Source of the DNA: Candidatus Thioglobus sp. REDSEA-S12_B1
GTDB lineage: Bacteria > Pseudomonadota > Gammaproteobacteria > PS1 > Pseudothioglobaceae
Length of the DNA: 64,000 bases
Assembly: GCA_001628405.1 (NCBI GenBank)
Contig: LURN01000077.1
Location: 1-64,000, forward strand
Direction: 5' to 3'
This document shows positions 48,709 through 64,000 of the stretch, in pieces. Each line of letters begins with the position of its first letter. Position 1 is the first letter of the stretch. Below the pieces are notes generated by a model. The model worked only from the letters and a program-made list of their open reading frames with translations, did not search any database and was not told the origin of the DNA. The translations under genes and the position numbers were made by a program.

Positions 48709-48748
48709 GTGGACTAGGTTTATATTAGATTTTCTGTAGAATGGCTTT

Positions 48749-49459
48749 ATGATTATTGCGCATCGTGGAGTCTCATTTACATTACCCGAGAATTCGATTC
48801 CAGCTTTCGAGGCATCTTGGCAGTTTGATGTTGACGGAATCGAAGGTGATTTCCATCTGACTAAAGATGGCGAAATTGTTTGTATTCACGATGATGACAC
48901 TCAGAGGGTTTGCAAGACTAAGGAAATCATTCATCAATCAACCCTTCAAGATTTAAAAAAGTTAGAGCTCTACCATGAGGGCGATTCTAGTCTCAATATA
49001 AAAATTCCCACACTAGCTGAAGTTATCAAGACTGTTCCAGAGGGAAAGAAAATTTTCATTGAGATCAAGTGTGGTCCTGAAATTCTCACTCCGCTTTTGA
49101 ATCAGCTTTCCCATTCTGAAATGAGTTCAGATGACATAGTGATTATTTCATTTCATTCTGAAGTGATAAAAGAGTTAAAGGCTTTGAACCCAGTTTTCAA
49201 AGCATTTTTTCTCTATTCTTGTGAGGATGGTCGAGATATAGATGGATTGATTGATGAGGCTATAAATATAAATGCCAATGGAATCTCAACCGACAATGAA
49301 TCTTCAAAATTATTTGTGGATAAAGTCATTGATGCAGGCTTAGAGTATCACTCATGGACGATAGATGATGCTGATGTCGCAATAAAGTTAATCGAGTGGG
49401 GGGCAAGTTCAATTACTACTAATGATCCTGAATCAATCATTAACAGGATTCAGGGTTAA
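48749..49459 (+). CDS. Glycerophosphodiester phosphodiesterase (GDPD/UgpQ-like)
   Basis: Cytoplasmic 236-residue TIM-barrel enzyme that splits glycerophosphodiesters to glycerol 3-phosphate and an alcohol. Catalytic His pair in IIAHRGVSFTLPENS and EIVCIHDDDTQR, metal Glu in GIEGDFHLTKDG and FIEIKCG. There is no signal peptide, so it acts on imported or internal substrates. A TAGAAT at 48737-48742 may be a -10 box very close to the start. Confidence 0.92.
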   Translation: MIIAHRGVSFTLPENSIPAFEASWQFDVDGIEGDFHLTKDGEIVCIHDDDTQRVCKTKEIIHQSTLQDLKKLELYHEGDSSLNIKIPTLAEVIKTVPEGKKIFIEIKCGPEILTPLLNQLSHSEMSSDDIVIISFHSEVIKELKALNPVFKAFFLYSCEDGRDIDGLIDEAININANGISTDNESSKLFVDKVIDAGLEYHSWTIDDADVAIKLIEWGASSITTNDPESIINRIQG

Positions 49460-49473
49460 ATTAAATTTATTCC

Positions 49474-49503
49474 TTGACGTTCTCTCTTCAAGAGACTTAA
49501 AAT
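49474..49503 (+). promoter_or_regulatory. Promoter of the EamA permease with an internal palindrome
   Basis: TTGACG (49474-49479) and TAAAAT (49498-49503) are separated by 18 bases. Between them lies a 6-bp-arm palindrome TCTCTT-c-AAGAGA (49483-49495), well placed for a repressor. Start codon GTG follows at 49538. Confidence 0.5.
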
Positions 49504-49537
49504 GCAGGCTCTTATCATTTATGATTCTTAACTGACT

Positions 49538-50404
49538 GTGTCTAATAATCTATCGGCAAGTGTTATCACGGCAATACTGGCAGCATTCTTTTTCTCTCTT
49601 GCCGCTACAGTAGTCCCGTATTTTTATGGAGTAGGTGGAACAGTATTCCTCCTTCTTTCGGTTCGATATGTCAGCACTTTTATTTTTGCAAGCATCCTAA
49701 ACAAGTCCCCCAAAAAAGCCAAAAGTAAATCAGCTCATACTCGGCTCATCTTGATCAGTCTGTTTCAAGCTCTATTTATTTCATCTTACATGTATTCAAT
49801 CAAATTAATTCCACTGAGTCTTGCTGTAGTCGTGATTTATACGTTTCCTATCATCACCTTTTTTGTAAATTCTCTCATCAAAAGTCGATCCATTGATTTT
49901 TTATCAGTTGCGGCGCTCTTAGTATCGCTATTTGGTATTTGGGTTTTGGTTCAGGGAGACTCAAGTGATTGGAATTTATGGGGTGTTTTTTGGGGGCTTG
50001 TGGCCTCGTGTGCCCAAGTCACAGTCAACATTTTATCGAGGCATAAAAGTGTTGAATCTGGCTGGGGGCTTGTTAAATACATTACAGTCTTGCCTGCTTT
50101 AATATTTGTATCTGTCTATTTTATTGTGACTTCAGATCCAATTTCTTCGGTATCCTCAGAGATGCTGATGTGGAGCATTCTTTCTGCTATGGGTATGAGT
50201 GGAGGGTTTTATTTTTTCTTTAAATCAATTTCTCTGATTGGCCCTGTTAGAACATCCAATGTGATGTATTTAGAGCCAGTATTTACTATTCTTTTAGGTG
50301 TAATGCTCCTGCAGGATGCCCTTGGAATGAGTCAGTGGATCGGTATGTTTATCATCTTTATTGCAACCATTTCTCTTGAGCGTTGGGGTAAAAAGTATAA
50401 TTAG
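49538..50404 (+). CDS. EamA-family (DMT) transporter
   Basis: Ten-helix drug/metabolite transporter of 288 residues with two EamA repeats (roughly 1-140 and 145-288). Typical end-of-repeat motifs: LAVVIYTFPIITFF and VMYLEPVFTILLGVMLLQD. The start is a GTG at 49538. Substrate unknown; 32 bases before the acetoacetyl-CoA synthetase gene. Confidence 0.85.
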   Translation: MSNNLSASVITAILAAFFFSLAATVVPYFYGVGGTVFLLLSVRYVSTFIFASILNKSPKKAKSKSAHTRLILISLFQALFISSYMYSIKLIPLSLAVVVIYTFPIITFFVNSLIKSRSIDFLSVAALLVSLFGIWVLVQGDSSDWNLWGVFWGLVASCAQVTVNILSRHKSVESGWGLVKYITVLPALIFVSVYFIVTSDPISSVSSEMLMWSILSAMGMSGGFYFFFKSISLIGPVRTSNVMYLEPVFTILLGVMLLQDALGMSQWIGMFIIFIATISLERWGKKYN

Positions 50405-50436
50405 AACAACCATCGGTATTGTTTGAGGAGGAATCA

Positions 50437-52380
50437 GTGAGTTCACCGATTTGGAAACCAAATAAGTCGCAAATTTCAAACGCGAATATCACCAAATTTT
50501 TAAGTTATGTGAGTCAGAATACAAATATCGAGCTCAATAATTATTGGGAATTACATCAGTATTCGATTGATTTCTCGGAGGAGTTTTGGCGATTAGTCGC
50601 AGATTATTGTGGTGCGATTGGCGATTTTTCACCCCCTGTGCGAGTGGGCGAATCGATGATTGATACTAAATGGTTTCCTGAAGCGTCCTTAAATTTTGCT
50701 GAAACTATGCTGGCACGTCGTGACAAGGCAGATGCGATTGTTTTTCGTGGTGAGAACAAGATTGAATTGCGTCTTTCATTTGCAGACCTCTATTTGCAGG
50801 TTGCCAAAGTTCAAGCTCACATGAGAGACTGTGGAGTTAGCGAAGGTGATCGTGTTGCAGCTTTTCTGCCCAATCATCCTGCGGCGATCATTGGTATGCT
50901 TGCAGCGACCTCAATTGGGGCGATTTGGTCTAGCTGTTCCCCCGATTTTGGCAAGCAAGGAGTTTTAGATCGTTTTGGACAGATTGAACCTAAGATGATT
51001 TTCGTTGTTGATGGCTATTATTACAATGGAAAAGCACATGACACAATTGAGAGGGTTAAGTCATTTTTAGATGATTTGCCTTCGATTGAAAATATCGTAA
51101 TGGTTGAATATATTCAATCTTATCAAGGAGATATTCAAAACTGCTCAACACTTTCAGAGATTCTATCAAGCCGTCAAGATAATGAAGTAGACTTTTTGCG
51201 TGTTCCCTTTGATCATCCACTTTGTATACTCTACTCCTCAGGCACGACGGGTGCGCCTAAATGCATAGTTCACGGCCACGGGGGTACACTTTTACAGCAC
51301 CTTAAAGAGCTTCAGCTACATGCTGATGTTCGTGAAGATGATCGCGTATTTTACTTCACTACCTGCTCATGGATGATGTGGAACTGGTTGGTTTCAGCTT
51401 TAGCGAGCAAGGCTACGGTAATGCTATATGATGGATCACCATTTTATCCAGGGGCAAAGGCGCTTTGGGACTTTGCTGAGGCTGAAAAATTTACGTTATT
51501 TGGTACTTCAGCTAAATATATTGAAGCATTACAAAAGGTAAACTTCTCCCCAAAATCTCAGCACAATCTTGAATCGCTTCGTGGTATGGCTTCAACCGGA
51601 TCACCGCTCTCTGCAGAAGGTTATGATTTTGTGTATTCTGAGATTAAAGATGATCTGCATCTCGCATCAATCTCTGGGGGTACAGATATTGTCTCATGCT
51701 TTGTTTTGGGTGTGCCGACCCTTCCGGTTTATCGAGGGGAAATACAAGCTCCTGGGCTTGGCATGAATGTGCAAGTTTGGAATGATGGAGGCGAATCCGT
51801 TCATAAAGAGCGTGGTGAGCTCATTTGCGCACAATCATTCCCATCTCGCCCGGTTTTCTTTTGGAAGGATGTGGAGGGCCAGAAATATCATTCTGCCTAC
51901 TATGAGCATTTTCCAAATGTATGGGCTCATGGTGATTTTGCAGAGATCACAGAGCATGGCGGCGTTGTGATTTATGGGCGTTCTGATGCGGTCCTTAATC
52001 CTGGCGGTGTGCGCATTGGTACGGCTGAGATTTACCGTCAAGTAGATAAAGTTGAGGCGGTACTTGAGAGTATTGTGATTGGACAGGAATGGAAAAACGA
52101 TGTTCGTGTTGTGCTGTTTGTGAAGATGCGCGAGGGTCAAGAGCTTACAGATGATCTCATTAAGGAGATTAAGTCGGTTATTCGCAGAGAGTGTACACCG
52201 AGACATGTTCCAGCTAAGATATTAGAAGTTGGTGATATTCCAAGAACAAAATCTGGAAAAATCGTAGAGATTTCGGTTCGTGATATAGTGCATGGGCGTG
52301 AAATTAAAAACAAGGAGTCTCTTGCAAACCCTGAGGCTCTAGAGTTCTTTAAAAACAGAGAAGAGATTTCATCAATTTGA
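50437..52380 (+). CDS. Acetoacetate-CoA ligase (acetoacetyl-CoA synthetase)
   Basis: ANL-superfamily acyl-CoA synthetase activating acetoacetate; 647 residues from GTG 50437, which has a GAGGAGG ribosome site (an in-frame TTG lies at 50419). The AMP-binding P-loop is ILYSSGTTGAPKCIVHG; the A10 Lys is in IPRTKSGKIVE. Tryptophan-rich TTCSWMMWNWL is typical of acetoacetyl/acetyl-CoA synthetases. Of 30 arginine codons I count 24 CGN and only 6 AGA/AGG, whereas the flanking glycerate kinase has 7 of 10 AGA/AGG. That shift suggests acquisition from another genome. Confidence 0.9.
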   Translation: MSSPIWKPNKSQISNANITKFLSYVSQNTNIELNNYWELHQYSIDFSEEFWRLVADYCGAIGDFSPPVRVGESMIDTKWFPEASLNFAETMLARRDKADAIVFRGENKIELRLSFADLYLQVAKVQAHMRDCGVSEGDRVAAFLPNHPAAIIGMLAATSIGAIWSSCSPDFGKQGVLDRFGQIEPKMIFVVDGYYYNGKAHDTIERVKSFLDDLPSIENIVMVEYIQSYQGDIQNCSTLSEILSSRQDNEVDFLRVPFDHPLCILYSSGTTGAPKCIVHGHGGTLLQHLKELQLHADVREDDRVFYFTTCSWMMWNWLVSALASKATVMLYDGSPFYPGAKALWDFAEAEKFTLFGTSAKYIEALQKVNFSPKSQHNLESLRGMASTGSPLSAEGYDFVYSEIKDDLHLASISGGTDIVSCFVLGVPTLPVYRGEIQAPGLGMNVQVWNDGGESVHKERGELICAQSFPSRPVFFWKDVEGQKYHSAYYEHFPNVWAHGDFAEITEHGGVVIYGRSDAVLNPGGVRIGTAEIYRQVDKVEAVLESIVIGQEWKNDVRVVLFVKMREGQELTDDLIKEIKSVIRRECTPRHVPAKILEVGDIPRTKSGKIVEISVRDIVHGREIKNKESLANPEALEFFKNREEISSI

Positions 52381-52403
52381 GATATCTTAATTAATTCTCC
52401 ATT

Positions 52404-53540
52404 ATGAAAATAGTCATAGCTCCTGATTCTTTTAAAGAAACGCTCTCCGCATTTGAGGTTGCCAGTGCTATTGAGTCAGGTTTTCAAAATGTTTTCCCTG
52501 AGGCTGAAATCATCAAGATTCCAATCGCTGATGGTGGCGAAGGAACCGTTGATGCAATGGTCAGAGCAACTAATGGGAGTTTTGAGTTTTCAGAGGTTGA
52601 AGGACCAATGGGTGATAACACAAGAGCTAAATGGGGGATGCTTGGAAACTCAAAAACTGCTGTGATTGAAATTGCAGAAGCATGTGGCTTACATTTAGTC
52701 TCAGCAAACAAAAGAAATCCAATGGCAGCATCCAGTTATGGAGTCGGACAGCTTGTAATCGCTGCGTTAGATAAGGGAGCAAAAAAAATCATTATTGGAC
52801 TTGGCGGAAGCTCTACAAATGATGGAGGATATGGTTTTTTAAGGGCAATAGGTGTTCAGTTTTTGGATTCTAAAGGCAATGAATTGAATGGCCATTTTGA
52901 AACTTTAAGTTTGTTATCTGATATTAATCTCAGTCATATAGATAAACGAATAATGAATACATCCATCGAGATAGCCTGTGATGTTGATAATCCGCTTCTT
53001 GGACACCAAGGCGCCACTAGAGTTTTTGCAGCTCAAAAAGGAGCTAGTAATAAAATGATTGAAGAGCTAGAGTCAATCATGACTCACTATTATGAGGTCA
53101 TCTCAGGTCAGTTAAAGAGTCAGGCACGTGATCAGCCTGGGTTTGGTGCTGCTGGCGGGCTAGGCTTTGGTATTTCAGCTTTTTCAAATTCAGAGCTTAA
53201 GAGTGGAATTAGTATTGTGCTTGAGACGCTCAACTTTAATCAGTATTTATTGAATGCAGATTTAGTCATAACTGGTGAGGGTCGGATTGACAGTCAAAGC
53301 GAAAGAGGCAAGGCTCCAATTGGCGTTATTAATTATGCAAATCAATTGAACTGTAGAGTTTTCGTCATTGCAGGTTCAGTTGACGATCCAAAAGTTTTTA
53401 ATCAAAAATTCAATGTGACTAATTCGTACGGGATTGTTAATGAAAAGTTTTCAATAGAAAAGGCTTTTGAGGACCCATATGGGTGCCTTAAAAATGTCTC
53501 TCAAAAAGCTGCAGAGGATTTCAAAGCCTTAGTAACCTAG
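52404..53540 (+). CDS. Glycerate kinase (GlxK/GarK family)
   Basis: Class-I glycerate kinase of 378 residues, phosphorylating D-glycerate to a phosphoglycerate. Opening IAPDSFKETLSAFEVASAI, then PIADGGEGTVDAM, and nucleotide motif GLGGSSTNDGGYGFL, with VITGEGRIDSQSERGKAP near the end. Its 3' end overlaps by 12 bases the end of the convergent hydroxyacid dehydrogenase, a possible hydroxypyruvate-to-glycerate partner. Confidence 0.93.
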   Translation: MKIVIAPDSFKETLSAFEVASAIESGFQNVFPEAEIIKIPIADGGEGTVDAMVRATNGSFEFSEVEGPMGDNTRAKWGMLGNSKTAVIEIAEACGLHLVSANKRNPMAASSYGVGQLVIAALDKGAKKIIIGLGGSSTNDGGYGFLRAIGVQFLDSKGNELNGHFETLSLLSDINLSHIDKRIMNTSIEIACDVDNPLLGHQGATRVFAAQKGASNKMIEELESIMTHYYEVISGQLKSQARDQPGFGAAGGLGFGISAFSNSELKSGISIVLETLNFNQYLLNADLVITGEGRIDSQSERGKAPIGVINYANQLNCRVFVIAGSVDDPKVFNQKFNVTNSYGIVNEKFSIEKAFEDPYGCLKNVSQKAAEDFKALVT

Positions 53541-54557
53541 CTCAGGGTTAACGAGATTGTTCAGACTCTCATTCGCGATGTATCTTTGCATATTCATCAT
53601 CACCAAATCGAGCGTAAGCGGAATATAGGTATCGCCATCATCAGCAGAGATATGAGGCATAACCATAAGGTTAGGGGTAGCCCATAGCTCTGATTCTGAT
53701 GGAAGAGGTTCAGGGTCAAATACGTCAATGATTGCTGCCTTTACGTGGCCAGAATTCAAGTTGTCAACCAGAGCATCATAGTCCATTGTTGCAGCTCTAC
53801 CAACATTAATAATTCCGACGCCAGGCTTCATTAATGATTGACGTCTTTTATCAAGAAGGTTTGATGTTTCCTTAGTGTTCGGAATTGATATAAATATATA
53901 ATCAGCAAGTGGAAGCACTTCATCGAGTTCATTTTGAGAGACCATTTGATCAACATCATCAAGATCTTTTCCGTGACGACTAACCCCAATTACATTCATT
54001 CCAAGTAGCTTGCACTTTTGAGCTGCCGCATAACCAATATTTCCAACACCAATAACGAGTAGAGTTTTTCCCGCGATGGGAGAGGAATATAACGACTCCC
54101 AATGATTACTTTGTTGGTTTCTGACTATTTCAGGAATATGAGTGTGGAGCATCAAAACACTCATCAGCCCAAACTCTCCAGCCTTCGCCGAATGAACCCC
54201 TCTGTTATTTACGACAGATACATTTTCAGGAACCCAATCCATCGGACATAAATGCTCAACACCTGCCCCAATAATGTGTATCCACTTTAAATTAGGTGCG
54301 ATCTCCGATAGATTTTCAGTTGGAAAATCCCAGCATACTAAGACCTCAGCAGTTTTCATGGATTCATAAAAGTTATCAAGGTCCCAGTCAAAAACAGGAT
54401 CAATCTTACCTTTTAAGTCTGGAAATCTTTCAATCGCATCTCTGTATCTTTCTTCAGTGATCGCGAACACACTCTCACCTTCAATCGTAGGAGGGAATGA
54501 ATCAGGGTCGGCGTGATTGCTCTTAAAGTGGACTCTAATTTTTTTATTACTCGGCAT
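53529..54557 (-). CDS. D-2-hydroxyacid dehydrogenase, NAD(P)-dependent
   Basis: 342-residue enzyme reducing a 2-oxoacid such as glyoxylate or hydroxypyruvate. NAD fold motif VIGVGNIGYAAAQKCK; catalytic Arg in INVGRAA, Glu in FDPEPLP and His in MPHISAD. It starts 11 bases after the Rieske oxygenase on the same strand, so it is likely in its operon. Substrate not decided. Confidence 0.9.
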   Translation of the reverse strand: MPSNKKIRVHFKSNHADPDSFPPTIEGESVFAITEERYRDAIERFPDLKGKIDPVFDWDLDNFYESMKTAEVLVCWDFPTENLSEIAPNLKWIHIIGAGVEHLCPMDWVPENVSVVNNRGVHSAKAGEFGLMSVLMLHTHIPEIVRNQQSNHWESLYSSPIAGKTLLVIGVGNIGYAAAQKCKLLGMNVIGVSRHGKDLDDVDQMVSQNELDEVLPLADYIFISIPNTKETSNLLDKRRQSLMKPGVGIINVGRAATMDYDALVDNLNSGHVKAAIIDVFDPEPLPSESELWATPNLMVMPHISADDGDTYIPLTLDLVMMNMQRYIANESLNNLVNPELGY

Positions 54558-54568
54558 AGTTTTTTGGT

Positions 54569-55978
54569 CTATGAGTTCTCTCTTGATTGAATTTCAACTA
54601 GTTTATTAGAGACAATTTCGATTCTCTCTTTTTCAGTTTTTCCATCAACCTCGAATTGAATTTTAATGAATTCCTTGGCAAGTTTACTAAATAAACTATC
54701 CTCATCCTCATCAATTTTTGGGATGTTAATAACAGAATCACCGCCGTAAGTTGGTATTGGCGATTCTTTTAAATCGGTCACTTTGTAGGGTTCTTTGCCA
54801 TCAGCAAGGCTTCTGATTTGTTCTCTTATTCTTTGTCTCATCATAGCAACTCCCTGGTCACTAGCAACAAGGTTTTCATTTTTATGGATGTTAATTGGCC
54901 CCATCCCCTCGCAAGCTTCTCTATCTGCTGGGAATCTTTGACGCTCCTCATAAGGTCTATCAAAAATTTCTCCCTGTTCTATCAGCTCAGGCCCTTCTGG
55001 AGTATTGTATTCTGGTGGATCGCCACGGTCGCCAAAATTAGCCCAGGCATAGCAAATTGTTGTTTCGTCATCTATTGGCACAACCCATCTAGTAAATGAA
55101 CTTCGACCATAGAGTATTTCTTTTGTGCCATCAGCCTGGAAAGCAGATCCAGCTTGAGTAAAGTTGGGCAGTACAACCTCGTTAATTCTAAACCATACAT
55201 TATCACCGACCCTTCGTGTGTTGCATCCAAGAATCCAACTATCTCTCTCGACAAATTCAATTTGTCCCACTTCTCCAAAGCCTTCTGAGAACTGCTGCCG
55301 ACTCATATTTGAGTGTAGAAATGAGGTATGAATTGGATCGACAATAGCATCAAGTACTTGAAGCCAGTTACATTCAAATGGTGCTTTGTAGGGAACCATT
55401 TCCATGTCATCAAAATTTAAACTATCATACATTGGGAACTCAGGTTTCTGATCAATTGGGCCAAGATAGGCAAATATCAGCCCTTTAAATTCATGTGTTG
55501 GATAGGCTCCAAGTCGAACCTTCTCCTTGATAATTTCTTGTGTGTGCTCTGACTGACCAGGTACTTCTAGAATTGAACCATCAACATCAAAATGCCAACC
55601 GTGATAACAACAACTAATTCCATTAGTTTGACAAATTCCAAACTCAAGAGAGGCTTGGCGATGCGGACAGTGTTTATGAACCAAACCTAGCTGCTTACTT
55701 TTATCACGAAATAAAACTAATTCTTCACCCAAGATTTTGATTGCTACAGGGAGGTCAGCAAGTTCTGATGAGATAAAAATAGGGTGCCAATATCTTCTTA
55801 AATACTCTCCGGCTTTGGTGCCTGGACCAATGCGTGTAATTTCATCATCAACCTCTTTAGATTGCTTTATTTCATAGCCAGAAAAGCCATTTAATTCAAC
55901 CTCTATTTTATTTTTTTGATTATCCAAATGTCCAAGCCTGTTTAAAAAATAGTAAATTTTTTGCACAAATAATACCAA
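54569..55978 (-). CDS. Rieske [2Fe-2S] non-heme iron oxygenase, phthalate 4,5-dioxygenase-like
   Basis: Oxygenase component of about 469 residues from a TTG at 55978. No ATG is close and family homology starts only near residue 44, so the start is uncertain (another TTG lies at about 55927). Rieske ligands are Cys104/His106 (CPHR) and Cys123/His126 (CCYHGW). The mononuclear iron site reads DAIVDPIHTSFLH. The bulky C-terminal region with RQRIREQIRSLADGK resembles phthalate/phenoxybenzoate-type oxygenases. A reductase partner is not found in the window. It is divergent from the second Rieske gene. Confidence 0.85.
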   Translation of the reverse strand: MVLFVQKIYYFLNRLGHLDNQKNKIEVELNGFSGYEIKQSKEVDDEITRIGPGTKAGEYLRRYWHPIFISSELADLPVAIKILGEELVLFRDKSKQLGLVHKHCPHRQASLEFGICQTNGISCCYHGWHFDVDGSILEVPGQSEHTQEIIKEKVRLGAYPTHEFKGLIFAYLGPIDQKPEFPMYDSLNFDDMEMVPYKAPFECNWLQVLDAIVDPIHTSFLHSNMSRQQFSEGFGEVGQIEFVERDSWILGCNTRRVGDNVWFRINEVVLPNFTQAGSAFQADGTKEILYGRSSFTRWVVPIDDETTICYAWANFGDRGDPPEYNTPEGPELIEQGEIFDRPYEERQRFPADREACEGMGPINIHKNENLVASDQGVAMMRQRIREQIRSLADGKEPYKVTDLKESPIPTYGGDSVINIPKIDEDEDSLFSKLAKEFIKIQFEVDGKTEKERIEIVSNKLVEIQSRENS

Positions 55979-56103
55979 ACATATTTACATATTATTCAAT
56001 TATTAAGTAAAAATTGCATTTATTAGTAATTAATTATTAAGTATTTACTAAATAAGTAATAATTAGGTCTATAATCTCAAATCTAAAATACTGAAATTAA
56101 AGT
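55979..56103. promoter_or_regulatory. Divergent control region between the two Rieske oxygenase genes
   Basis: 125 bases, very AT-rich. AATTATTAAGTA occurs twice in direct orientation (55998-56009 and 56032-56043, 34 bases apart, about three helical turns). A palindrome TTACT-AAATA-AGTAA (56045-56059) lies just upstream of a perfect -10 box TATAAT (56070-56075) serving the plus-strand gene. The layout suits a multi-site regulator such as the Lrp-family protein encoded 2 kb downstream. Binding is inference. Confidence 0.55.
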
Positions 56104-57204
56104 ATGGATAAATCAGTAATAAAAAATAATTTATCTTCATTTAACAAGAAGAGTGACCTAAAGCATGGACTCCCAAGCTGGGCATACACCAGCGATGAGT
56201 TTTTCGATGTTGAATGTAAAACCGTATTTACTAATAATTGGGTTTTTGCTGGATTTGTCCATGAATTCAAAGAGCCTGGGGATGCGATTCCCATTTCAGT
56301 TGCAGGGCAGCCAATCGTTCTGCTAAAAAATATTAATGGGAAAATTAACGCATTTCATAATGCTTGCTCTCATCGCTGTCTAAAGCTTATAGATGAGTCT
56401 TGTAATGTTGGTTCCATGCTTTCATGTCCCTATCATTCATGGACCTATAATTTGGATGGAGATCTTTGCGCCACCCCATTTTTTGGTGGTCGAGAGCATC
56501 AACCTGAAGGCTTTAACATGTCTGATCATGGACTTAAGACTGTAAAGACTGCAATCTGGAATGACTGGATTTTTGTTAATTTGAGTGATAATGCACAAGA
56601 TTTTGAAGAGTATGCAAGACCCTTAATTAATAATTTCAAAGATATTGATTTTCAAAACGTGACTCCTGTTGCAACTCTTGATTTTGGAGAAATAGCAACG
56701 AATTGGAAATTCCTTATGGAAAACTTTATTGAGCCTTACCATGTCCAGTTTGTTCACAGGACAACTACAAACCAGCCACTTGAAGATCACTACACAATTG
56801 TGGATGGTGTTTGCGTTGGAAGTGCAATTGACTTAGACGATGATGACAAGGTTGAAGGCAGTCTCTCGGTTAGCTCAAGATACTTGACATTATTTCCCAA
56901 TTTTATAATTGGGAGATATTTCCCTGACCAGATTGGCGTCTATCTAAATGTTCCACTGGATTCAGGCCATACCCTTCAAAAAAGAGTAATTTACACAACT
57001 GATGGTAAGACCATTTCAGATAAAAGTGTTGATGAGATTAAAAGATTATGGTGGGATGTTCACAAGGAAGATCATGCGATCTGTGAAAGAATGCAGCTTG
57101 GAAGATTGTCACCAGTATCAAAGGATGGAGGATTGTTATCCCCCAATTGGGAAGACAGCGTCAGAGCTTTTCAACAGATGATAGCTGATGCAGTAACGAA
57201 GTAA
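56104..57204 (+). CDS. Rieske non-heme iron oxygenase, quaternary-amine (GbcA/CntA-like) type
   Basis: 366-residue oxygenase alpha subunit. Rieske ligands are Cys88/His90 (CSHRC) and Cys108/His111 (CPYHSW). The mononuclear iron triad lies in NFIEPYHVQFVH, with a Glu (residue 210) where ring dioxygenases have the bridging Asp; that Glu is a feature of the quaternary-ammonium group. The C-terminus (KEDHAICERMQLGR, then FQQMIADAV) also fits that group. It likely N-demethylates or C-N cleaves a methylated amine. First of a five-gene plus-strand set. The reductase is not in the window, and substrate is not known. Confidence 0.85.
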   Translation: MDKSVIKNNLSSFNKKSDLKHGLPSWAYTSDEFFDVECKTVFTNNWVFAGFVHEFKEPGDAIPISVAGQPIVLLKNINGKINAFHNACSHRCLKLIDESCNVGSMLSCPYHSWTYNLDGDLCATPFFGGREHQPEGFNMSDHGLKTVKTAIWNDWIFVNLSDNAQDFEEYARPLINNFKDIDFQNVTPVATLDFGEIATNWKFLMENFIEPYHVQFVHRTTTNQPLEDHYTIVDGVCVGSAIDLDDDDKVEGSLSVSSRYLTLFPNFIIGRYFPDQIGVYLNVPLDSGHTLQKRVIYTTDGKTISDKSVDEIKRLWWDVHKEDHAICERMQLGRLSPVSKDGGLLSPNWEDSVRAFQQMIADAVTK

Positions 57205-57226
57205 TATTAATTAATGAGGAGTAATT

Positions 57227-57652
57227 ATGGCAAATGATAGTTTTAACAGTGAGTATAGGTTGGCGCATACGATGATGAGAGTGCTTGACCTGGATAAATC
57301 AATCGCATTTTATTGCGATATATTGGGTATGCAGGTTTTAAGAAAAACTGATTACCCAGGAGGACGCTATACAAATGCTTTTGTGGGCTATGGTCCAGAA
57401 AGAGAATTTCCAGCACTAGAATTAACCCATAACTGGGATCAAGAGGAGCATTATGATAAGGGTAATGGATGGGGCCATATTTGTATAGAGACACCCGATG
57501 TCTATAAAGCAGTCGAGGATCTAGAGGCGAGCGGAGCCAAGATTATTAGTCCAGCAAAACCGATGAATGCAGGAACAAGAATCCTTGCCTTCATAGAGGA
57601 TCCTGATGGTTATGTCGTTGAACTTAATGAAAAACTTGAATTAACTGAATAA
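57227..57652 (+). CDS. gloA: Glyoxalase I-like VOC-fold protein (lactoylglutathione lyase family)
   Basis: 141 residues with the classical glyoxalase I pattern: HTMMRVLDLDKSIAFYCDILGM, ALELTHNWD, GHICIETPDVYKA and DPDGYVVELNE. Metal-binding His and Glu residues are conserved in these. It may be the general methylglyoxal enzyme or, in this setting, a dedicated aldehyde-detoxifying step. A GAGGAG ribosome site precedes the start. Confidence 0.85.
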   Translation: MANDSFNSEYRLAHTMMRVLDLDKSIAFYCDILGMQVLRKTDYPGGRYTNAFVGYGPEREFPALELTHNWDQEEHYDKGNGWGHICIETPDVYKAVEDLEASGAKIISPAKPMNAGTRILAFIEDPDGYVVELNEKLELTE

Positions 57653-57658
57653 GGATAG

Positions 57659-58063
57659 ATGATGAAAGACAATAAACCAAAACTCTATAAGTTTAGTGAG
57701 ATTGAACATCGTCTCCATACCCTTGAGCCAGGTAAAAGCTACATAAAACCTTTTGTTACAAGTGCAGTAAGCGATACGATGTGCGGCGGTCTGAACTTTT
57801 TGAATGAGGTTTCTGTCCCATGGGAGCTGACCTGTGACGAGATTATTTACTGCATGGAAGGAACCTTTAGATTAACCTGTGATGGGGTTGCTTACGAGTG
57901 TAATCCTGGAGATGTTTTATATATCCCCAAAGATAATTCAATTGCTTATGAATGTGATGAAAAATGCATAATTTTTTATGCAGCTTACCCTCATGACTGG
58001 AAACAACAGGCAGGAATTACATTTGTTCCTGGAATTGATCCAGAGGACATGCCACAAAACTAG
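57659..58063 (+). CDS. Cupin-domain protein, EutQ-like
   Basis: 134 residues forming a single cupin barrel (GGGLNFL-type first motif GGLNFLNEVSVPWELTCDEIIY; second motif GDVLYIPKDNSIAYECDE). It resembles the ethanolamine-utilisation EutQ cupin family. There are several cysteines, and no standard two-His metal motif is obvious. Its position, six bases after the glyoxalase-like gene and before the Lrp regulator, suggests a role in the same amine pathway. Function unknown. Confidence 0.72.
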   Translation: MMKDNKPKLYKFSEIEHRLHTLEPGKSYIKPFVTSAVSDTMCGGLNFLNEVSVPWELTCDEIIYCMEGTFRLTCDGVAYECNPGDVLYIPKDNSIAYECDEKCIIFYAAYPHDWKQQAGITFVPGIDPEDMPQN

Positions 58064-58072
58064 AACATTATT

Positions 58073-58621
58073 ATGAGCAACTCAAGTAGTCGATTAATTA
58101 ATTTGAATCAAAATAATGATACCAATGCTGATTCGGGCACACCTTTGCCAACTAGAGACACACTCAAGGATAAATTAAACCAGCAAATCATTGATTTGCT
58201 AGAGTTGGATGGAAGATTGCCGTTTAAGGAAATTGCAAACACTCTAGATATATCAGAGGGCACTGTTAGAAATAGGGTCAATCGAATGAAGGATGCAGGA
58301 GTTCTTCAAATTAAGGCATTGGTTGATCGTTCGGCAATAAATTATTCAACTGATTCCATGCTCGGAATCAAGGTTGCGTCTAACTCGAGTCCTAGCCTAG
58401 TTGCTCAAAGGTTAGAAAGTTGTAATGAGATCGTATTTATTATGTGGGTCACCGGTCGATATGACTTGCTTGTCGAGATTGCATCCGAGAGCGACGACAC
58501 ATTAAGCAAATTTCTTGAAGAACACTGTTTTAATAATGATGATATTAAGGACGTTGAAGTGATGAAGGGTCTCGCAACATTTAAAAATCAGTTCTTGTTG
58601 AAGTCTCAAGAGAAAATTTGA
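58073..58621 (+). CDS. Lrp/AsnC-family transcriptional regulator
   Basis: 182 residues with an N-terminal winged helix-turn-helix (LLELDGRLPFKEIANTLDIS, then GTVRNRVNRM) and a C-terminal RAM effector domain (VTGRYDLLVEIASESDDTL). About 35 extra polar residues precede the HTH. It lies inside the amine cluster and is the natural candidate to bind the control region at 55979-56103 and sense an amino acid or glutamyl-amide. Confidence 0.88.
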   Translation: MSNSSSRLINLNQNNDTNADSGTPLPTRDTLKDKLNQQIIDLLELDGRLPFKEIANTLDISEGTVRNRVNRMKDAGVLQIKALVDRSAINYSTDSMLGIKVASNSSPSLVAQRLESCNEIVFIMWVTGRYDLLVEIASESDDTLSKFLEEHCFNNDDIKDVEVMKGLATFKNQFLLKSQEKI

Positions 58622-58654
58622 TATAAAAAAATAGAGAAAATAGAAGGAGAAAAT

Positions 58655-60073
58655 ATGAAAAAAATTTATCACACTAAGATGGAAGATGCTCTTCCCTCAA
58701 AAAAGCGTGTTGCAGAAGAAAAAGCAAGACTCGAAAAAGCCGGCGTTAAATATATTCTATCTTGCTGGATTGATATGCTTGGACTTCCGAAAACTAAACC
58801 AATCCCTTTTAGAGAGTTTGAAAACTTGTGTGCTGGTAAGGGCCCTCAATTTGCCGTTCATTCAGTTTCATTTGTGCCAGAGTTAGGGCCAAATGATTCA
58901 GATCAAATTCCTGTGCCTGACCTTGATAGTTTAGTAATTTGTCCTTGGGATAAGACATGTGTTTGGGTTTTTTCAGACTTATGGTGGGAGGGAGAGCCAT
59001 ACAATTTATGTCCTAGACAGACCCTCAAAAGAGCGATTCAAAATGCCGATGAAGCGGGTTACAAGGCTTATTGCGGTATCGAGCCAGAGTTCATTGCAAT
59101 GCGCTATGAAAACGGCCAGCCAGTCAAAGCGTTTGATGATGATCCATTACCTGGGGAGGGTCTTCGTCCAAGAAGACAGGCCTTTGGATATGATGTCGAA
59201 TACTCTATAGACTCGATGGAGTTCTTCAAAGAGCTCATTGATATTGTCAACGATCTAGGTTGGGAAATGAAGGATGTTGTTGCAGAGGGTGCTTACTCAC
59301 AATTCGAACTAGACTTCACATATACCGACGTACTCCAAATGGCAGACCGATTAGTATTCTTAAGAGTATTGCTCAAGGAAGTAGCTAAAAAATATGGAAT
59401 GTTCATCACCTTTATGCCCAAGCCAACAATTGGTGACTGGAGATCTGGTGCACACATTAATTTCAGTATGACAAGCACAAAGGATAATAAAAATATTTTT
59501 GAAGGAGAGAATGGAAAGTTCTCTGATCAAGCTTATCATGCGGTAGGTGGACTCATCAAACATGGCACTTCACTCACTGCGATAGCATGCTCGACGGTTA
59601 ATTCATACAATGGACTTGTTCCAATTGTTGGAGGATTTGAAGGAGGTGTTTACACTTGGGCGCCAACAACCATGGGCTATGGTGATAACAACCGATCATG
59701 CATGCTCAGACTACCCCAAAACCGTTTTTGTATCGAGAATCGTGCAGCTGATATGTGCATGAACCCATACTTATCTCTTGCAATGACAACTGCCTCAGTA
59801 ATAGATGGTATTAAAAATAAGATTGATCCTGGCGAGCCTTTGAATATTAATCTTTATACATTGAGTCCTGAAGAAATGGAGGCATCCAATATAAAATCAT
59901 TGCCTAGGAATCTTTTAGAGGCCATTGAGGCGCTCAATGAAGACGATTTTGCGAGAGAGGTTCTGGGAGATTCAATGCTTCTTCAATTTTTCTCTTACAA
60001 AAAAGATGAGTGGGATAGATATCATCAGGCGGTTACAGATTGGGAAGTTGAAGAGTTTTTGAGGCTCTATTAA
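58655..60073 (+). CDS. Glutamine-synthetase-like glutamate-amine ligase, first copy
   Basis: 472 residues of the glutamine synthetase fold. Metal-ligand positions can be aligned: Glu143/Glu145 (GIEPEF), Glu211, Glu218 and His267; the C-terminal Glu361/Arg363 (IENRAADMCMNPY) is present. In the H-x-H motif the second His is Asn (GAHINF), and the usual NSYKR reads NSYNG, so it is not a classical GlnA. It most likely glutamylates an amine, as GmaS, IpuC or PuuA do. An AAGGAG ribosome site lies 5 bases upstream. It is followed by a strong hairpin. Confidence 0.85.
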   Translation: MKKIYHTKMEDALPSKKRVAEEKARLEKAGVKYILSCWIDMLGLPKTKPIPFREFENLCAGKGPQFAVHSVSFVPELGPNDSDQIPVPDLDSLVICPWDKTCVWVFSDLWWEGEPYNLCPRQTLKRAIQNADEAGYKAYCGIEPEFIAMRYENGQPVKAFDDDPLPGEGLRPRRQAFGYDVEYSIDSMEFFKELIDIVNDLGWEMKDVVAEGAYSQFELDFTYTDVLQMADRLVFLRVLLKEVAKKYGMFITFMPKPTIGDWRSGAHINFSMTSTKDNKNIFEGENGKFSDQAYHAVGGLIKHGTSLTAIACSTVNSYNGLVPIVGGFEGGVYTWAPTTMGYGDNNRSCMLRLPQNRFCIENRAADMCMNPYLSLAMTTASVIDGIKNKIDPGEPLNINLYTLSPEEMEASNIKSLPRNLLEAIEALNEDDFAREVLGDSMLLQFFSYKKDEWDRYHQAVTDWEVEEFLRLY

Positions 60074-60124
60074 AGAAGAAAATTATTGCCAAAATGTAGT
60101 TCGTTTTTAATTTAAACTATCTTT

Positions 60125-60158
60125 TTTTTGAATTATTTCTAATTCAAAAACTTTTTTT
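60125..60158 (+). terminator. Intrinsic terminator/attenuator between the first ligase and mgsA
   Basis: An 11-bp perfect AT-rich stem (60125-60135 with 60140-60150, loop TTTC) is followed by C and seven T residues (60152-60158). It sits between the first glutamine-synthetase-like gene and mgsA, whose ribosome site begins only a few bases later. It could separate two transcription units or attenuate read-through. Confidence 0.7.
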
Positions 60159-60171
60159 ATTTGGAGAAAAT

Positions 60172-61065
60172 ATGTGTGGAATTGTTGGACTTTTTATTAA
60201 GAATCCTCAGCTTGAATCTCAACTTGGAGCTTTAGTTGCCCCTATGCTGAGTGAGATGACAGAGCGTGGACCTGATAGTGCTGGAATGGCAGTATATAGG
60301 GATCCAAATGAGAGTGGCTGTAAGGTCACTGTGCTAGCTCAAGAAGTCAATTTCGATTGGGAAAAGTTTCAAGAATCGGTTCATTCTAATTTTTCAGTAA
60401 TTAAGTTCTACCTGAATCAGAATCATGCAGTTCTTTCATTAGAGGCATCCCTCAATGAAGTAGAGGATTGGCTTCAATTGAATTGGAAACAATTGAGCGT
60501 TACAAGTGCTGGAAGTAATATTGAAATCTTTAAAGGGAAGGGTAATCCATCTGATTTTATCGAGCAATTTGATATTATAAACATGACAGGAACTCATGCT
60601 TTAGGGCATACAAGAATGGCTACAGAGAGCGCCATTACAACCGAGCATTCACATCCATTTTCAACAGGCCAAGATTTATGCTTGGTACACAATGGTTCAC
60701 TCTCAAATCATAACCGTCTGCGTGAGGTACTTAAACGAAATGGAGTTCAATTTAAAACCGATAACGATAGTGAGGTTGCTGCAGGTTATTTGAGTTGGCG
60801 TCTAAGTGAGGGCGATGACTTGGATGAAGCGTTGAATCATGCCATAGAGGATTTAGATGGTTTTTATACTTTTGCTATTGGCACTAAGGATGGTTTTGCA
60901 GTTATGAGAGATCCGATTGGGTGCAAACCAGCAATCATGGCAGAGACTGATGACTGGGCAGCAATGTCTTCAGAGTATCGGGCAATTGCAACATTACCAG
61001 GCGCTGAAAATGCACGCATCTGGGAGCCTGAACCAACCCAGATTTACAGTTGGAAGAGGAGTTAA
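60172..61065 (+). CDS. mgsA: N-methylglutamate synthase subunit A / GlxB-type glutamine amidotransferase
   Basis: 297 residues, a class II (Ntn) amidotransferase domain like the N-terminal part of glutamate synthase. Cys2 (MCGIVGLF) is the nucleophile; TERGPDSAGMA and GTHALGHTRMATES are the glutamine pocket. In the N-methylglutamate pathway the three glutamate-synthase domains are split into mgsA, mgsB and mgsC, in exactly this order. It carries an ATTTGGAGA ribosome site. Confidence 0.88.
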   Translation: MCGIVGLFIKNPQLESQLGALVAPMLSEMTERGPDSAGMAVYRDPNESGCKVTVLAQEVNFDWEKFQESVHSNFSVIKFYLNQNHAVLSLEASLNEVEDWLQLNWKQLSVTSAGSNIEIFKGKGNPSDFIEQFDIINMTGTHALGHTRMATESAITTEHSHPFSTGQDLCLVHNGSLSNHNRLREVLKRNGVQFKTDNDSEVAAGYLSWRLSEGDDLDEALNHAIEDLDGFYTFAIGTKDGFAVMRDPIGCKPAIMAETDDWAAMSSEYRAIATLPGAENARIWEPEPTQIYSWKRS

Positions 61066-61067
61066 AT

Positions 61068-61742
61068 ATGGCCATAATTGACCTGAATAAAAGCACGATT
61101 AGAGAGCTTAATGAAAAGTTACAAAGTGGATCTGCAGGTGATAAATTCATCGTAAATAATACTGTTGGAAAGCATGCCCTTTCTGTTGGACTCACTTCAG
61201 AAATTGATGTTGAGATTAATGGACATGTTGGATATTACTGCGCAGGAATGAATCAAGAGGCTTCTATAAAAATCAATGGAAATGCTGGTCCAGGACTTGC
61301 TGAAAATATGATGTCTGGAGAGGTTCGAGTAACAGGAAATGCATCTCAATATGCTGCTGCAACTGCTCATGGGGGGCTGCTTGTGATTGAGGGTGATGCT
61401 AGTTCCCGATGCGGAATCTCAATGAAGGGGGTCAATATCGTAGTTGGCGGTAATATTGGGCATATGAGTGCGTTCATGGCGCAGTCAGGAAGCCTGGTTG
61501 TATGCGGTGATGCAGGAGATGCTCTTGGAGACTCTATTTATGAGACCAAAATCTATGTCAGAGGAAAAGTTAAAAGCCTAGGGACAGATTGTATTGAAAA
61601 AGAAATGAAAAAAGAGCATAAAGAAGAATTGGCTAATCTTTTAAAGATGGCACAAATGAATTACAGTGTAGATGAGTTCCGTCGATATGGCTCCGCACGC
61701 AAATTATATAACTTTGACATTGACCAAGTCGGTGACTATTAA
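61068..61742 (+). CDS. mgsB: N-methylglutamate synthase subunit B / GlxC-type (GltB GXGXG domain)
   Basis: 224 residues from ATG 61068, equivalent to the C-terminal beta-helix domain of glutamate synthase. Gly-rich repeats are visible (INGNAGPGLAENMMSGEV, VVGGNIGHMSAFMAQSG, GDAGDALGDSIYETKIYV). Begins 2 bases after mgsA, so translation is coupled. Confidence 0.88.
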   Translation: MAIIDLNKSTIRELNEKLQSGSAGDKFIVNNTVGKHALSVGLTSEIDVEINGHVGYYCAGMNQEASIKINGNAGPGLAENMMSGEVRVTGNASQYAAATAHGGLLVIEGDASSRCGISMKGVNIVVGGNIGHMSAFMAQSGSLVVCGDAGDALGDSIYETKIYVRGKVKSLGTDCIEKEMKKEHKEELANLLKMAQMNYSVDEFRRYGSARKLYNFDIDQVGDY

Positions 61743-61753
61743 GGAGAAAAGAC

Positions 61754-63076
61754 ATGAGTAAAGACAATCCAACATTAATTGAGTCAGCTACTTTTCCCCG
61801 ACACGTTATAGCTGAAATTCAACGCGCAGCTAAAACTGGTATATATGATATCCGTGGTTTTGGTGCAAAAAGAGCTATCCCTACCTTTGACGATTTAGTT
61901 TTTTTAGGTGCCTCGACTTCACGCTATCCTTTGGAAGGCTATAGGGAGAAATGCACCACTGAAGTCATTCTTGGTAATCGGTTTGCGAAAAAACCAATTC
62001 ATTTAAAGACCCCAATCACGATTGCAGGAATGAGTTTTGGATCTCTCTCAGCTCAAGCTAAAGAATCCTTGGGACGGGGTGCAACGATTGCTGGAACGAG
62101 CACAACAACGGGTGATGGGGGGATGACTCCTGAAGAGAGAGGACATTCAAAAACTCTTGTCTATCAGTATCTTCCTTCTAGATACGGTATGAATCCTGAT
62201 GACTTAAGAAGAGCTGATGCAATCGAAATAGTTCTGGGTCAAGGAGCCAAGCCTGGCGGCGGCGGTATGCTTTTGGGTCAAAAGATTTCTCCGAGAGTTG
62301 CTCAAATGAGAGATTTACCAGAAGGTATTGATCAGCGTTCAGCTTGTCGCCATCCAGACTGGACAGGTCCAGATGATTTAGAAATAAAGATTCAAGAGCT
62401 CAGAGAAATCACAAATTGGGAAAAACCAATTTATGTAAAAGTTGGAGCAACCCGTGTATTTTACGATGTGACTTTGGCAGTTAAGGCGGGAGCGGACGTT
62501 GTAGTCGTTGATGGAATGCAGGGCGGAACTGCTGCTACTCAGGATGTTTTTATTGAGCATGTAGGGATTCCAACACTACCAGCAGTTCGAATGGCTGTAG
62601 AAGCTTTACAGGAAATGGATATGCATCGTAAAGTTCAATTGATTGTTTCTGGCGGCATAAGGAGTGGTGCTGATGTTGCAAAAGCTCTTGCGCTTGGTGC
62701 TGATGCGGTAGCAATTGGTACAGCAGCCTTGATAGCTTTGGGTGACCAGAGTCCTGAGTTTGATGAGGATTATAAAGCGATTGGGTCCGCAGCAGGATTT
62801 TGGGATGACTATCAACAAGGGAATGATCCTGCTGGAATTACAACACAAGACCCGGAGTTGGCAAAGCGATTAGATCCTAAATTAGGGGGTCGTCGCCTTG
62901 CTAATTATCTCAATGTGTTGACTCTGGAGCTGCAAACTTTAGCGCGAGCTTGTGGCAAAAGTCACGTGCATAATCTAGAGCCAGAAGATATGGTAGCATT
63001 AACGATGGAGGCTGCTGCAATGGCAGGAGTGCCATTAGCAGGTACCGAATGGATTCCAGGAAAGAAAGGGATTTAA
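61754..63076 (+). CDS. mgsC: N-methylglutamate synthase subunit C / GlxD-type FMN-binding glutamate synthase domain
   Basis: 440 residues with the FMN barrel of glutamate synthase: ITIAGMSFGSLSAQAKESLGRG, GQGAKPGGGGMLLG, and the phosphate site GGIRSGADVAKALALGADAVAIG. It transfers nitrogen or a methylated amine between glutamyl amide and 2-oxoglutarate-derived product, by family knowledge of Mgs. Eleven bases after mgsB. Confidence 0.9.
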   Translation: MSKDNPTLIESATFPRHVIAEIQRAAKTGIYDIRGFGAKRAIPTFDDLVFLGASTSRYPLEGYREKCTTEVILGNRFAKKPIHLKTPITIAGMSFGSLSAQAKESLGRGATIAGTSTTTGDGGMTPEERGHSKTLVYQYLPSRYGMNPDDLRRADAIEIVLGQGAKPGGGGMLLGQKISPRVAQMRDLPEGIDQRSACRHPDWTGPDDLEIKIQELREITNWEKPIYVKVGATRVFYDVTLAVKAGADVVVVDGMQGGTAATQDVFIEHVGIPTLPAVRMAVEALQEMDMHRKVQLIVSGGIRSGADVAKALALGADAVAIGTAALIALGDQSPEFDEDYKAIGSAAGFWDDYQQGNDPAGITTQDPELAKRLDPKLGGRRLANYLNVLTLELQTLARACGKSHVHNLEPEDMVALTMEAAAMAGVPLAGTEWIPGKKGI

Positions 63077-63118
63077 ATAGGGATAAATTTTTTTGATACA
63101 GAAAAGATAGGAGTTTTT

Positions 63119-64000
63119 ATGGCAACTAAACTTAGTAAAGTAGCTAAAGAAAAAGGGATTGAATATTTTCTAATAAGTTTCGTCGACTTATTTGGAAGTT
63201 TGCGTTCAAAACTGGTTCCAGCCAGAGCGATTGATGATATGCAAGAAGAAGGAGCTGGTTTTGCTGGTTTTGCAGCGTGGCTTGATATGACTCCTGCACA
63301 TCCAGATATGTTCGCTATTCCTGATCCAGATAGTTTAATTCAGCTGCCATGGAAGCCCGAAGTTGGATGGCTTGCCTCCGATTTATGGATGGATGGGAAG
63401 CCGGTAGAAGCCTCACCAAGAGTAGCATTAAAGAGACAGCTAGCAGAGGCTGAAAAGCTAGGTTACCGCATGAAAACTGGTGTTGAGTGTGAATATCACT
63501 TGATTAACGATGATGGCAGTGATATTGCAGATGACAAAGACCAGCAGAGCAAACCTTGTTATGATCAACAAGCCTTGATGCGCCAATATCCAGTGATTAA
63601 GCAAATTTGTGATTGCATGATTGAGCTTGGTTGGGGGCCTTATCAAAATGACCATGAGGATGCAAACGGTCAATTTGAGATGAACTGGGATTTTGATGAC
63701 GCACTCACCACTGCAGATCGACAAGTATTTTTTAAATTTATGGTGAAATCCATAGCAGAGCTGCATGGGATGCGAGCAACATTTATGCCAAAGCCTTTTA
63801 GTCATCTGACTGGTAATGGTTGCCACTCACATCTATCAATTTGGAGTCTTGATGGTTCAAAAAATTTATTTAATGGTGATGATGATAGCAGAGGGTTAGG
63901 ATTATCATCTCTTGCTTATCAGTTCTTAGGTGGTATTATGCACAGCGCTGATAAACTAACTGCAATCTTCAATCCAACCGTCAATAGCTATAAACGCATC
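63119..64000 (+). CDS. gmaS: Gamma-glutamylmethylamide synthetase / GlnT-type glutamine synthetase, second copy, partial
   Basis: 294 codons from ATG 63119 run open to the window end. Glutamine-synthetase fold of the type III (GlnT/GmaS) class: Glu123/Glu125 (GVECEY), Glu180, Glu187, His236/His238 (GNGCHSHLS) and NSYKRI at the very end. A GGAG ribosome site lies just upstream. Position after mgsABC matches both the methylamine clusters (gmaS) and rhizobial glxBCD-glnT. GmaS is favoured by the context of a methylated-amine oxygenase, but GlnT cannot be excluded. Confidence 0.87.
   Translation, partial: MATKLSKVAKEKGIEYFLISFVDLFGSLRSKLVPARAIDDMQEEGAGFAGFAAWLDMTPAHPDMFAIPDPDSLIQLPWKPEVGWLASDLWMDGKPVEASPRVALKRQLAEAEKLGYRMKTGVECEYHLINDDGSDIADDKDQQSKPCYDQQALMRQYPVIKQICDCMIELGWGPYQNDHEDANGQFEMNWDFDDALTTADRQVFFKFMVKSIAELHGMRATFMPKPFSHLTGNGCHSHLSIWSLDGSKNLFNGDDDSRGLGLSSLAYQFLGGIMHSADKLTAIFNPTVNSYKRI

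Follow-up and report, generated by a model that had tools for sequence, protein, structure and literature searches.

The first 64,000 nucleotides of contig LURN01000077.1 from Candidatus Thioglobus sp. REDSEA-S12_B1 (hereafter, the window) end in a gene cluster that comprises two modules. The first unites GS2 with MgsABC and corresponds to an N-methylglutamate (NMG) module of the ordinary kind. The second is a separate conserved core that includes a ligase of the glutamine synthetase (GS) family (GS1), two Rieske oxygenases (RieA and RieB), a D-2-hydroxyacid dehydrogenase (HADH), a glyoxalase-I-like protein (VOC), a small cupin (CUP), a regulator of the Lrp family (LRP) and an alpha/beta hydrolase (ABH); this gene set matched no described pathway and is joined here to the known methylamine route. 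The original prediction, made from the window sequence, had merged the two modules into a single system of amine catabolism. The locus consists of 11 open, intact genes flanking a divergent region, as judged from the open reading frame (ORF) map and translations. These genes and their two neighbors are the following:

52404–53540, forward strand: glycerate kinase (GLK; TIGR00045, 464.7 bits, cut-off 168.45)
53529–54557, reverse strand: HADH, D-2-hydroxyacid dehydrogenase (PF02826, 164.6 bits; below the cut-off of every NCBIfam equivalog)
54569–55978, reverse strand: RieA, Rieske oxygenase of the phthalate/isophthalate dioxygenase type (PF00355 and LigXa_C)
55979–56103: divergent control region between RieA and RieB (ORF map)
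56104–57204, forward strand: RieB, GbcA/CntA-like Rieske oxygenase (best NCBIfam model GbcA, 144.6 bits, cut-off 670)
57227–57652, forward strand: VOC, glyoxalase-I-like (TIGR00068, 140.9 bits, cut-off 120)
57659–58063, forward strand: CUP, small EutQ-like cupin (PF06249, 61.9 bits, cut-off 21)
58073–58621, forward strand: LRP, Lrp/AsnC regulator (PF13404, PF01037)
58655–60073, forward strand: GS1, GS-family ligase with a rebuilt acid pocket (TIGR03105, 368.2 bits, below the cut-off of 469.6)
60172–61065, forward strand: MgsA, glutamine-amidotransferase subunit of the NMG-synthase type (GATase_6/7; N-terminal MCGIVG)
61050–61742, forward strand: MgsB, GXGXG subunit (PF01493, 52.7 bits, cut-off 32.5)
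61754–63076, forward strand: MgsC, FMN/glutamate-synthase-domain subunit (PF01645, 307.7 bits, cut-off 20.4)
63119–64000, continuing to contig position 64,432, forward strand: GS2, GmaS (gamma-glutamylmethylamide synthetase; TIGR03105, 676.8 bits, cut-off 469.6)
contig positions 64,448–65,458, past the window, after GS2: ABH, alpha/beta hydrolase (PRK07581, 433.2 bits, cut-off 332)

The genes named in the original prediction are real, open and intact, with families that match the names, and the arrangement is divergent as described, HADH and RieA running leftward and RieB to GS2 rightward; the count of ten genes has to be raised to 11, and ABH and GLK lie outside the region then delimited. GLK is convergent with HADH, with a 12-base overlap, and is probably a downstream partner of the cluster. 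GS2 is clipped by the window end, and its full product is 437 amino acids long. Two starts are uncertain: the ORF of RieA opens at a TTG approximately 17 codons ahead of the start suggested by orthologues, and MgsB has an alternative ATG six codons downstream. The host contig (C75 in our numbering) belongs to a 1.6 Mb genome in 77 contigs and is assigned to the Ca. Thioglobus/SUP05 group; the nearest relatives among named records are uncultured gammaproteobacteria and genomes of Ca. Thioglobus and the SUP05 cluster, and the tree labels place several relatives in Pseudothioglobaceae.

The core is present in the genus, in SAR324, and in Gammaproteobacteria and Alphaproteobacteria, so that its genes are shared with only distantly related bacteria of the ocean and of sponges, which likewise handle methylated amines. 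Between the core proteins and their counterparts in relatives, identities range from approximately 43 to 100% across many genomes, which excludes a chance assemblage, and the cluster, whose absence from every relative would have refuted the original prediction, is conserved in relatives. A GS1 orthologue with 78–100% identity is found in 19 of the 25 genomes of the genus (including that of the window), in three layouts, namely, GS1-MgsABC-GS2-ABH, GS1-GS2-ABH (e.g., L035–L038 and L097) and GS1-ABH (L034). The locus sample comprises 80 GS1 loci (L-numbered), 59 of which were sorted as non-genus; many loci are clipped by contig ends, the non-genus ones are mostly 21 kb or shorter, and the neighboring genes of distant loci were read partly by eye, with some later checked by profile models. 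In the 57 non-genus loci where GS1 itself was clustered, and where contig ends hide uncounted neighbors, GS1 is accompanied most often by ABH (49 loci), followed by LRP (33), RieB (28), HADH (19), RieA (18), VOC (17) and the cupin (12). MgsABC, by comparison, is found near GS1 in just one of the 59 non-genus loci (L045, SAR324), so that the Mgs-GmaS module is most likely an addition to a core that exists without it. A scan of viral contigs detected no relative of GS1, and a virus-carried copy was accordingly rejected.

The SAR324 locus L045 combines, within 21 kb of the core, an OpuAC-type binding protein, an ABC ATPase, MgsABC, GmaS and a trimethylamine N-oxide (TMAO) demethylase (Tdm, 1197 bits); the same stretch holds an Amt-like protein that scores below the Amt cut-off. 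In this locus, MgsA, MgsC and GmaS (L045:4981–7969 and 16825–18142) are fragmented, GmaS by frameshifts, while the surrounding core is intact, which may be an assembly error.

The assignment of the first module follows from family models. GS2 exceeds the cut-off of the GmaS model TIGR03105 (676.8 against 469.6 bits) and aligns with the solved GmaS structure 7cql at 640.7 bits, and the glutamine amidotransferase, GXGXG and Glu_synthase domains of MgsABC come in the expected order, so that by these sequence criteria the module corresponds to the beginning of the NMG pathway (GmaS-MgsABC-MgdABCD). The original prediction described mgsABC as split: all three subunits are present, and a three-subunit form is the normal one. 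The pathway differs here in that mgd is not adjacent, that the module is flanked by GS1 and ABH, which belong to a different gene set, and that the same genome holds a second set, GS492-GlxBCD. The mgdABCD genes, anticipated just past position 64,000, are absent from the contig, whose remaining sequence was examined through to the last position, 73,699. Contig C38 of the same genome encodes a SoxBDAG-type set, with soxB above its cut-off (675.9 against 529.45 bits) and soxD (111.1, cut-off 116.5), soxA (1136.1, cut-off 1164) and a contig-cut soxG-like gene (44.2, cut-off 143.95) below theirs; sarcosine oxidase and Mgd are indistinguishable by these models. Under this assignment, GS2 and MgsABC would convert methylamine and glutamate to N-methylglutamate, and a complex of the SoxBDAG/Mgd type encoded on another contig would then release glutamate and a C1 unit.

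GS1 does not belong with GmaS by the same model (368.2 bits, cut-off 469.6), and its best solved relatives are 9qur (237.6 bits) and 7cql (224 bits). For the pocket, 127 rows of the GS family were aligned (GS1, 78; others, 49); since seven reference copies, as well as near-copies drawn from loci that overlap, are among them, the rows do not amount to 127 independent genes. In Salmonella numbering, position 321 is Gly in 78/78 GS1 rows and Arg in 49/49 other rows, and positions 264–265 are Trp-Arg in 78/78 GS1 rows, whereas position 265 is Gly or Ala in all 49 others. R321 and G265 are the residues that we take to hold the substrate glutamate in GS enzymes. The metal/ATP catalytic residues E129, E131, E212, E220, H269, R344 and R359 are kept in all 78 rows, and D50 is lost, a change that, given the role we assume for this residue in GS, fits a non-ammonia amine, as in GmaS. 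In the tree, GS1 forms a single clade (100/100) with a long stem, next to a GmaS-like "b" clade (97/95), although long branches in other parts of the tree drew a warning from the program. The structure model of GS1 (pLDDT 71.8) confirms the fold only, and the modeled fold resembles that of GmaS (Z about 41). Because R321 is lost and position 265 is Arg in every GS1 row, we infer from the sequences that the acid partner of GS1 differs from glutamate or is held otherwise.

These observations bear directly on the scheme of the original prediction, in which both ligases form gamma-glutamyl amides of (methyl)amines that MgsABC converts to N-alkylglutamate. The intact catalytic residues, the loss of D50 and the fold shared with GmaS would suit this scheme, but the rebuilt glutamate pocket in all 78 rows does not, and with L045 as the sole case among the 59 non-genus loci MgsABC is not a regular neighbor of GS1. 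A single pathway with interchangeable ligases therefore has a low probability: GS1 fails the GmaS model, its pocket is rebuilt, and Mgs/GmaS lie near it in 1 of the 59 loci. Gamma-glutamylation of aniline by TdnQ and of 1-naphthylamine by NpaA1 likewise pairs a GS-family ligase with a Rieske oxygenase, but NpaA1 (8wwu) matches GS1 with 152.7 bits, compared to 237.6 and 224 bits for the structures on the GmaS side, and the glutamate pocket of GS1 is changed.

The closest PDB entries to RieA are 9ina and 7v28, of the phthalate/isophthalate dioxygenase type, from a weak model (pLDDT 61.9, TMq about 0.55). A RieA match is present in 36 of 50 distant GS1 carriers at E <= 1e-100 and in 33 of the 50 at 53% identity or more; these carriers were picked by GS1 similarity, many of them are related, and most are metagenome-assembled. 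Genomes in which RieA is away from GS1 often encode it elsewhere, and HADH adjoins RieA at 13 of 14 such loci chosen for reading (the exception is L117). RieB has the GbcA equivalog as its best model, scoring 144.6 bits, well below the cut-off of 670, and resembles the GbcA and CntA monooxygenases in that the bridging position is occupied by Glu (E210, within the sequence NFIEPYH; identical in 17/17 aligned proteins), which we take to mark Rieske enzymes of the betaine/carnitine type. A second GbcA-like Rieske protein (113.6 bits) is encoded near an ABC permease on contig C9. VOC passes TIGR00068 and misses two stricter glyoxalase I models (123.9 bits, cut-off 246; 92.7 bits, cut-off 165). The cupin, which had been called EutQ-like, does belong to the PF06249 family, but it misses the EutQ equivalog (50.1 bits, cut-off 193) and no other eut gene was recognized in the genes read, and utilization of ethanolamine was rejected on these grounds.

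Several neighbors of these genes were noted at individual loci. In three genomes, at L118 (2437–9892), L125 and L128, the vicinity of RieA and HADH includes a YbdK-type carboxylate-amine ligase, a DddP-like M24 protein and a TauD-type oxygenase, joined in L118 by a CuyA-like enzyme, as though RieA were paired with a different ligase at these loci. For neighbor searches, the 80 loci were combined with three plasmid loci and the 14 RieA loci; in 11 of these 97 loci, a PhyH-family oxygenase (e.g., L082:12702–13565, with copies 63–95% identical to it) is found near GS1. Its best PDB match is EvdO2 (41.1 bits), which lends no support to a role as a methylguanidine hydroxylase. A 693-amino-acid flavoprotein in L089 was considered as a di- or trimethylamine dehydrogenase and rejected, since its highest score was to an OYE model of the mycofactocin type and stayed below the cut-off. 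In most genus loci of sufficient extent, the cluster is bordered by a phosphodiesterase of the GDPD family and an EamA transporter (window positions 48749–50404), and in the rearranged layout of L035 EamA adjoins RieB; these two genes may be flanks or partners.

Our preferred reading, in which we place slightly less than even confidence, is that the core is responsible for the catabolism of an imported N-methylated compound, yielding a methylated amine and a C2–C3 acid. Gene content, conservation, co-occurrence and pocket changes of the core are observations, and every reaction of this second module is inferred. The substrate would probably be a carboxylated quaternary or tertiary amine that RieA and RieB dealkylate oxidatively, so that nitrogen would leave as a methylated amine toward the NMG module or the route of TMAO and trimethylamine (TMA). 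The released C2–C3 oxo-acid would pass through VOC and HADH (and GarR in some relatives) to glycerate and on to glycerate kinase. GS1 would catalyze ATP-dependent formation of an amide, with the acid partner held unlike glutamate in ordinary GS, ABH would hydrolyze an amide or ester in the GS1 branch, and LRP may sense a pathway intermediate.

Import and carbon fate are reflected in the gene neighborhoods of cultured Rhodobacteraceae, which carry the core with an ABC importer. Leisingera thetidis has five core enzymes and Lrp, in the order Lrp, hypothetical protein, RieB, gloA, cupin, GS1, three ABC genes and ABH, with identities to the window proteins of 57% (RieB), 68% (gloA), 63% (cupin), 62% (GS1) and 69% (ABH). 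GS1, ABH and Lrp are grouped with related ABC genes in Alisedimentitalea scapharcae and strain M382, where RieA-HADH-GarR are encoded 13–16 kb away; no close RieB, VOC or cupin was detected within the stretch read. The binding protein of this importer is of the NMT1 type; the importer is located between GS1 and ABH in Leisingera and adjoins GS1-ABH-Lrp in the other two Rhodobacteraceae, whereas neither the window nor any other locus examined yielded this protein. GarR adjoins HADH-RieA in L097 and L109 (one lineage) and in L164 and L166 (two Rhodobacteraceae plasmids), and glycerate kinase adjoins HADH in 13 of the 16 genus loci that hold HADH. These neighbors fit glyoxylate, hydroxypyruvate or tartronate-semialdehyde as the product.

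The same importer and the aromatic-carboxylate character of RieA (from a weak model) bring in a different substrate, homarine (N-methylpicolinate) or a related N-methylpyridinium carboxylate. The ring would be attacked by a Rieske enzyme and opened, with subsequent conversion to N-methylglutamate and oxidation by Mgd, and the NMG module would adjoin the core since both routes end in N-methylglutamate. NMT1-type proteins can presumably bind heteroaromatics, and the five core enzymes with Lrp in Leisingera would match homABCDER, possibly the name of the homarine operon. Such a route, however, has no obvious step for an ATP-dependent GS-type ligase, and we consider it unlikely, though it is the main rival of our reading. 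By its description, homarine catabolism shares a marine N-methylated substrate and the involvement of Mgd, as cited in PMC13390433. No description of the gene set was found in the open literature; a paper on the homarine pathway (Ferrer-Gonzalez et al. 2026, Nat Microbiol), which lies outside our comparison, may describe the core.

A link of the cluster to methylated amines, as originally predicted, is borne out by the GmaS assignment of GS2, by the domains of MgsABC and by the distant carriers, which nearly always have both Tdm and GmaS. Tdm is present in 43 of the 50 distant carriers (41 over the cut-off) compared to 6 of 185 genomes of the class, the own genome included (5 over the cut-off), and GmaS over the cut-off is present in 42/50 and 18/185, respectively; judging by coordinates, one of these 18 genomes (G167) is the same as the carrier G086. 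The counts are uncorrected for kinship or shared marine habitat. The core can thus be set beside the catabolism of TMAO and TMA (Tmm, Tdm, DmmDABC), with Tdm and core lying within 21 kb of each other in L045, but the HODM-alpha family of DmmDABC (PF11927), presumably a marker of dimethylamine monooxygenase, is found in 1/50 distant carriers and 0/16 genus genomes (own included), with 1/8 among other class genomes. We know of no Rieske or VOC enzyme in the TMAO/TMA route.

Several facts weigh against our preferred reading. GS1 is missing from six of the 25 genomes of the genus, among which at least G002 and G003 (91% complete) encode Tdm; the core is thus not needed for the use of TMAO. The co-occurrence with Tdm and GmaS may stem in part from the shared marine habitat and relatedness, and the location of Tdm near the core in only 1 of the 97 loci (L045) speaks against a strict tie. 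Only some of the carriers have the importer, and the same holds for GarR and for glycerate kinase; all three are absent from the 59 non-genus loci, as far as these short stretches extend. Finally, the modeled likeness of RieA to enzymes acting on aromatic dicarboxylates appears to fit a plain betaine poorly.

The combination of Tdm, which makes dimethylamine, with GmaS and the rarity of HODM-alpha suggests another possibility, namely, that the core replaces DmmDABC: GS1 would form an amide of dimethylamine, a Rieske enzyme would demethylate it and MgsABC would complete the route. A missing dimethylamine step in organisms with tdm and gmaS has been described for SAR11 (PMC5520151). A literature search for dimethylglutamate or gamma-glutamyldimethylamide in bacteria returned nothing relevant, judged by title. 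This alternative leaves HADH, VOC, the cupin, ABH and the importer unexplained, the altered glutamate pocket of GS1 speaks against it, genus members without GS1 keep Tdm, and the rarity of HODM comes without a matched control of Tdm genomes lacking GS1, with one of the eight other class genomes having HODM. Moreover, another gene set is a better candidate, in view of its location near Tdm and the single locus that brings Tdm next to the core; replacement of DmmDABC by the core is hence quite improbable.

That set is located on contig C9, which encodes a second ligase, GS492, with GlxBCD, a TMAO demethylase (1126 bits, cut-off 1100), ABC transporter genes, soxB and soxA. The distance between GS492-GlxBCD and Tdm is within 8 kb both in this genome and in 6 of 14 further genomes read, and the set, being found near Tdm in several marine lineages, could represent the unexplained dimethylamine step. 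The coordinates of GS492-GlxB-GlxC-GlxD are L104:8406–13502 (C9), L156:3144–8308, L158:5042–10155, L160:1297–6403 and L151:8798–14030. A protein of 125–142 amino acids is often encoded beside these genes, and the version in L158 has no match in Pfam or NCBIfam.

Some loci contain genes suggestive of guanidino compounds, and the core might accordingly degrade a (methylated) guanidino compound, such as methylarginine or a guanidino acid, with release of methylamines and urea. Near GS1 on the plasmids L164 and L166, there are genes for a DDAH/ADI-family protein, two ureohydrolases (one with 400.7 bits to 3-guanidinopropionase) and an enzyme of the 5-guanidino-2-oxopentanoate decarboxylase family (581.4 bits, cut-off 500). 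In L069 (5585–9230), Lrp-GS1 comes directly after two genes of the arginase family accompanied by HypA and HypB, with close copies in L073; this set resembles the operons of dimethylguanidine hydrolase (PMC11399263) and of heteromeric nickel ureohydrolases. Ureohydrolases, however, occur in 5 of the 97 loci and AruI-like proteins (at least 41%) in 4, none of them in the cluster of the window, and the ureohydrolases look like a neighboring operon. No guanidine riboswitch or other Rfam match was detected in the window stretch (47000–64000, up to E = 1) or in L164, L165, L069 and L073. We therefore give a guanidino substrate little credence.

Returning to the catabolism of an imported N-methylated compound, a bolder form of this proposal is conceivable, if rather doubtful: GS1 would be the first of a GS branch in which the pocket Arg has moved from position 321 to 265, activating an acid other than L-glutamate and defining an undescribed marine pathway from a major N-methylated osmolyte to methylamine or N-methylglutamate and glycerate. 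In any case, GS1 is a widespread enzyme of the GS family that keeps the catalytic residues and has lost an Arg universal in the comparison set, which poses a clean biochemical question, and the named carriers Leisingera thetidis and Alisedimentitalea scapharcae make the pathway testable. Bacteria of the SUP05/Thioglobus group and SAR324 are abundant in the ocean. Of the dissolved organic nitrogen in the sea, methylated amines make up an important share (PMC13390433). A conserved gene set that tracks the use of TMAO and methylamine and matches no pathway found suggests that a step or a substrate is still missing from the methylated-amine cycle.

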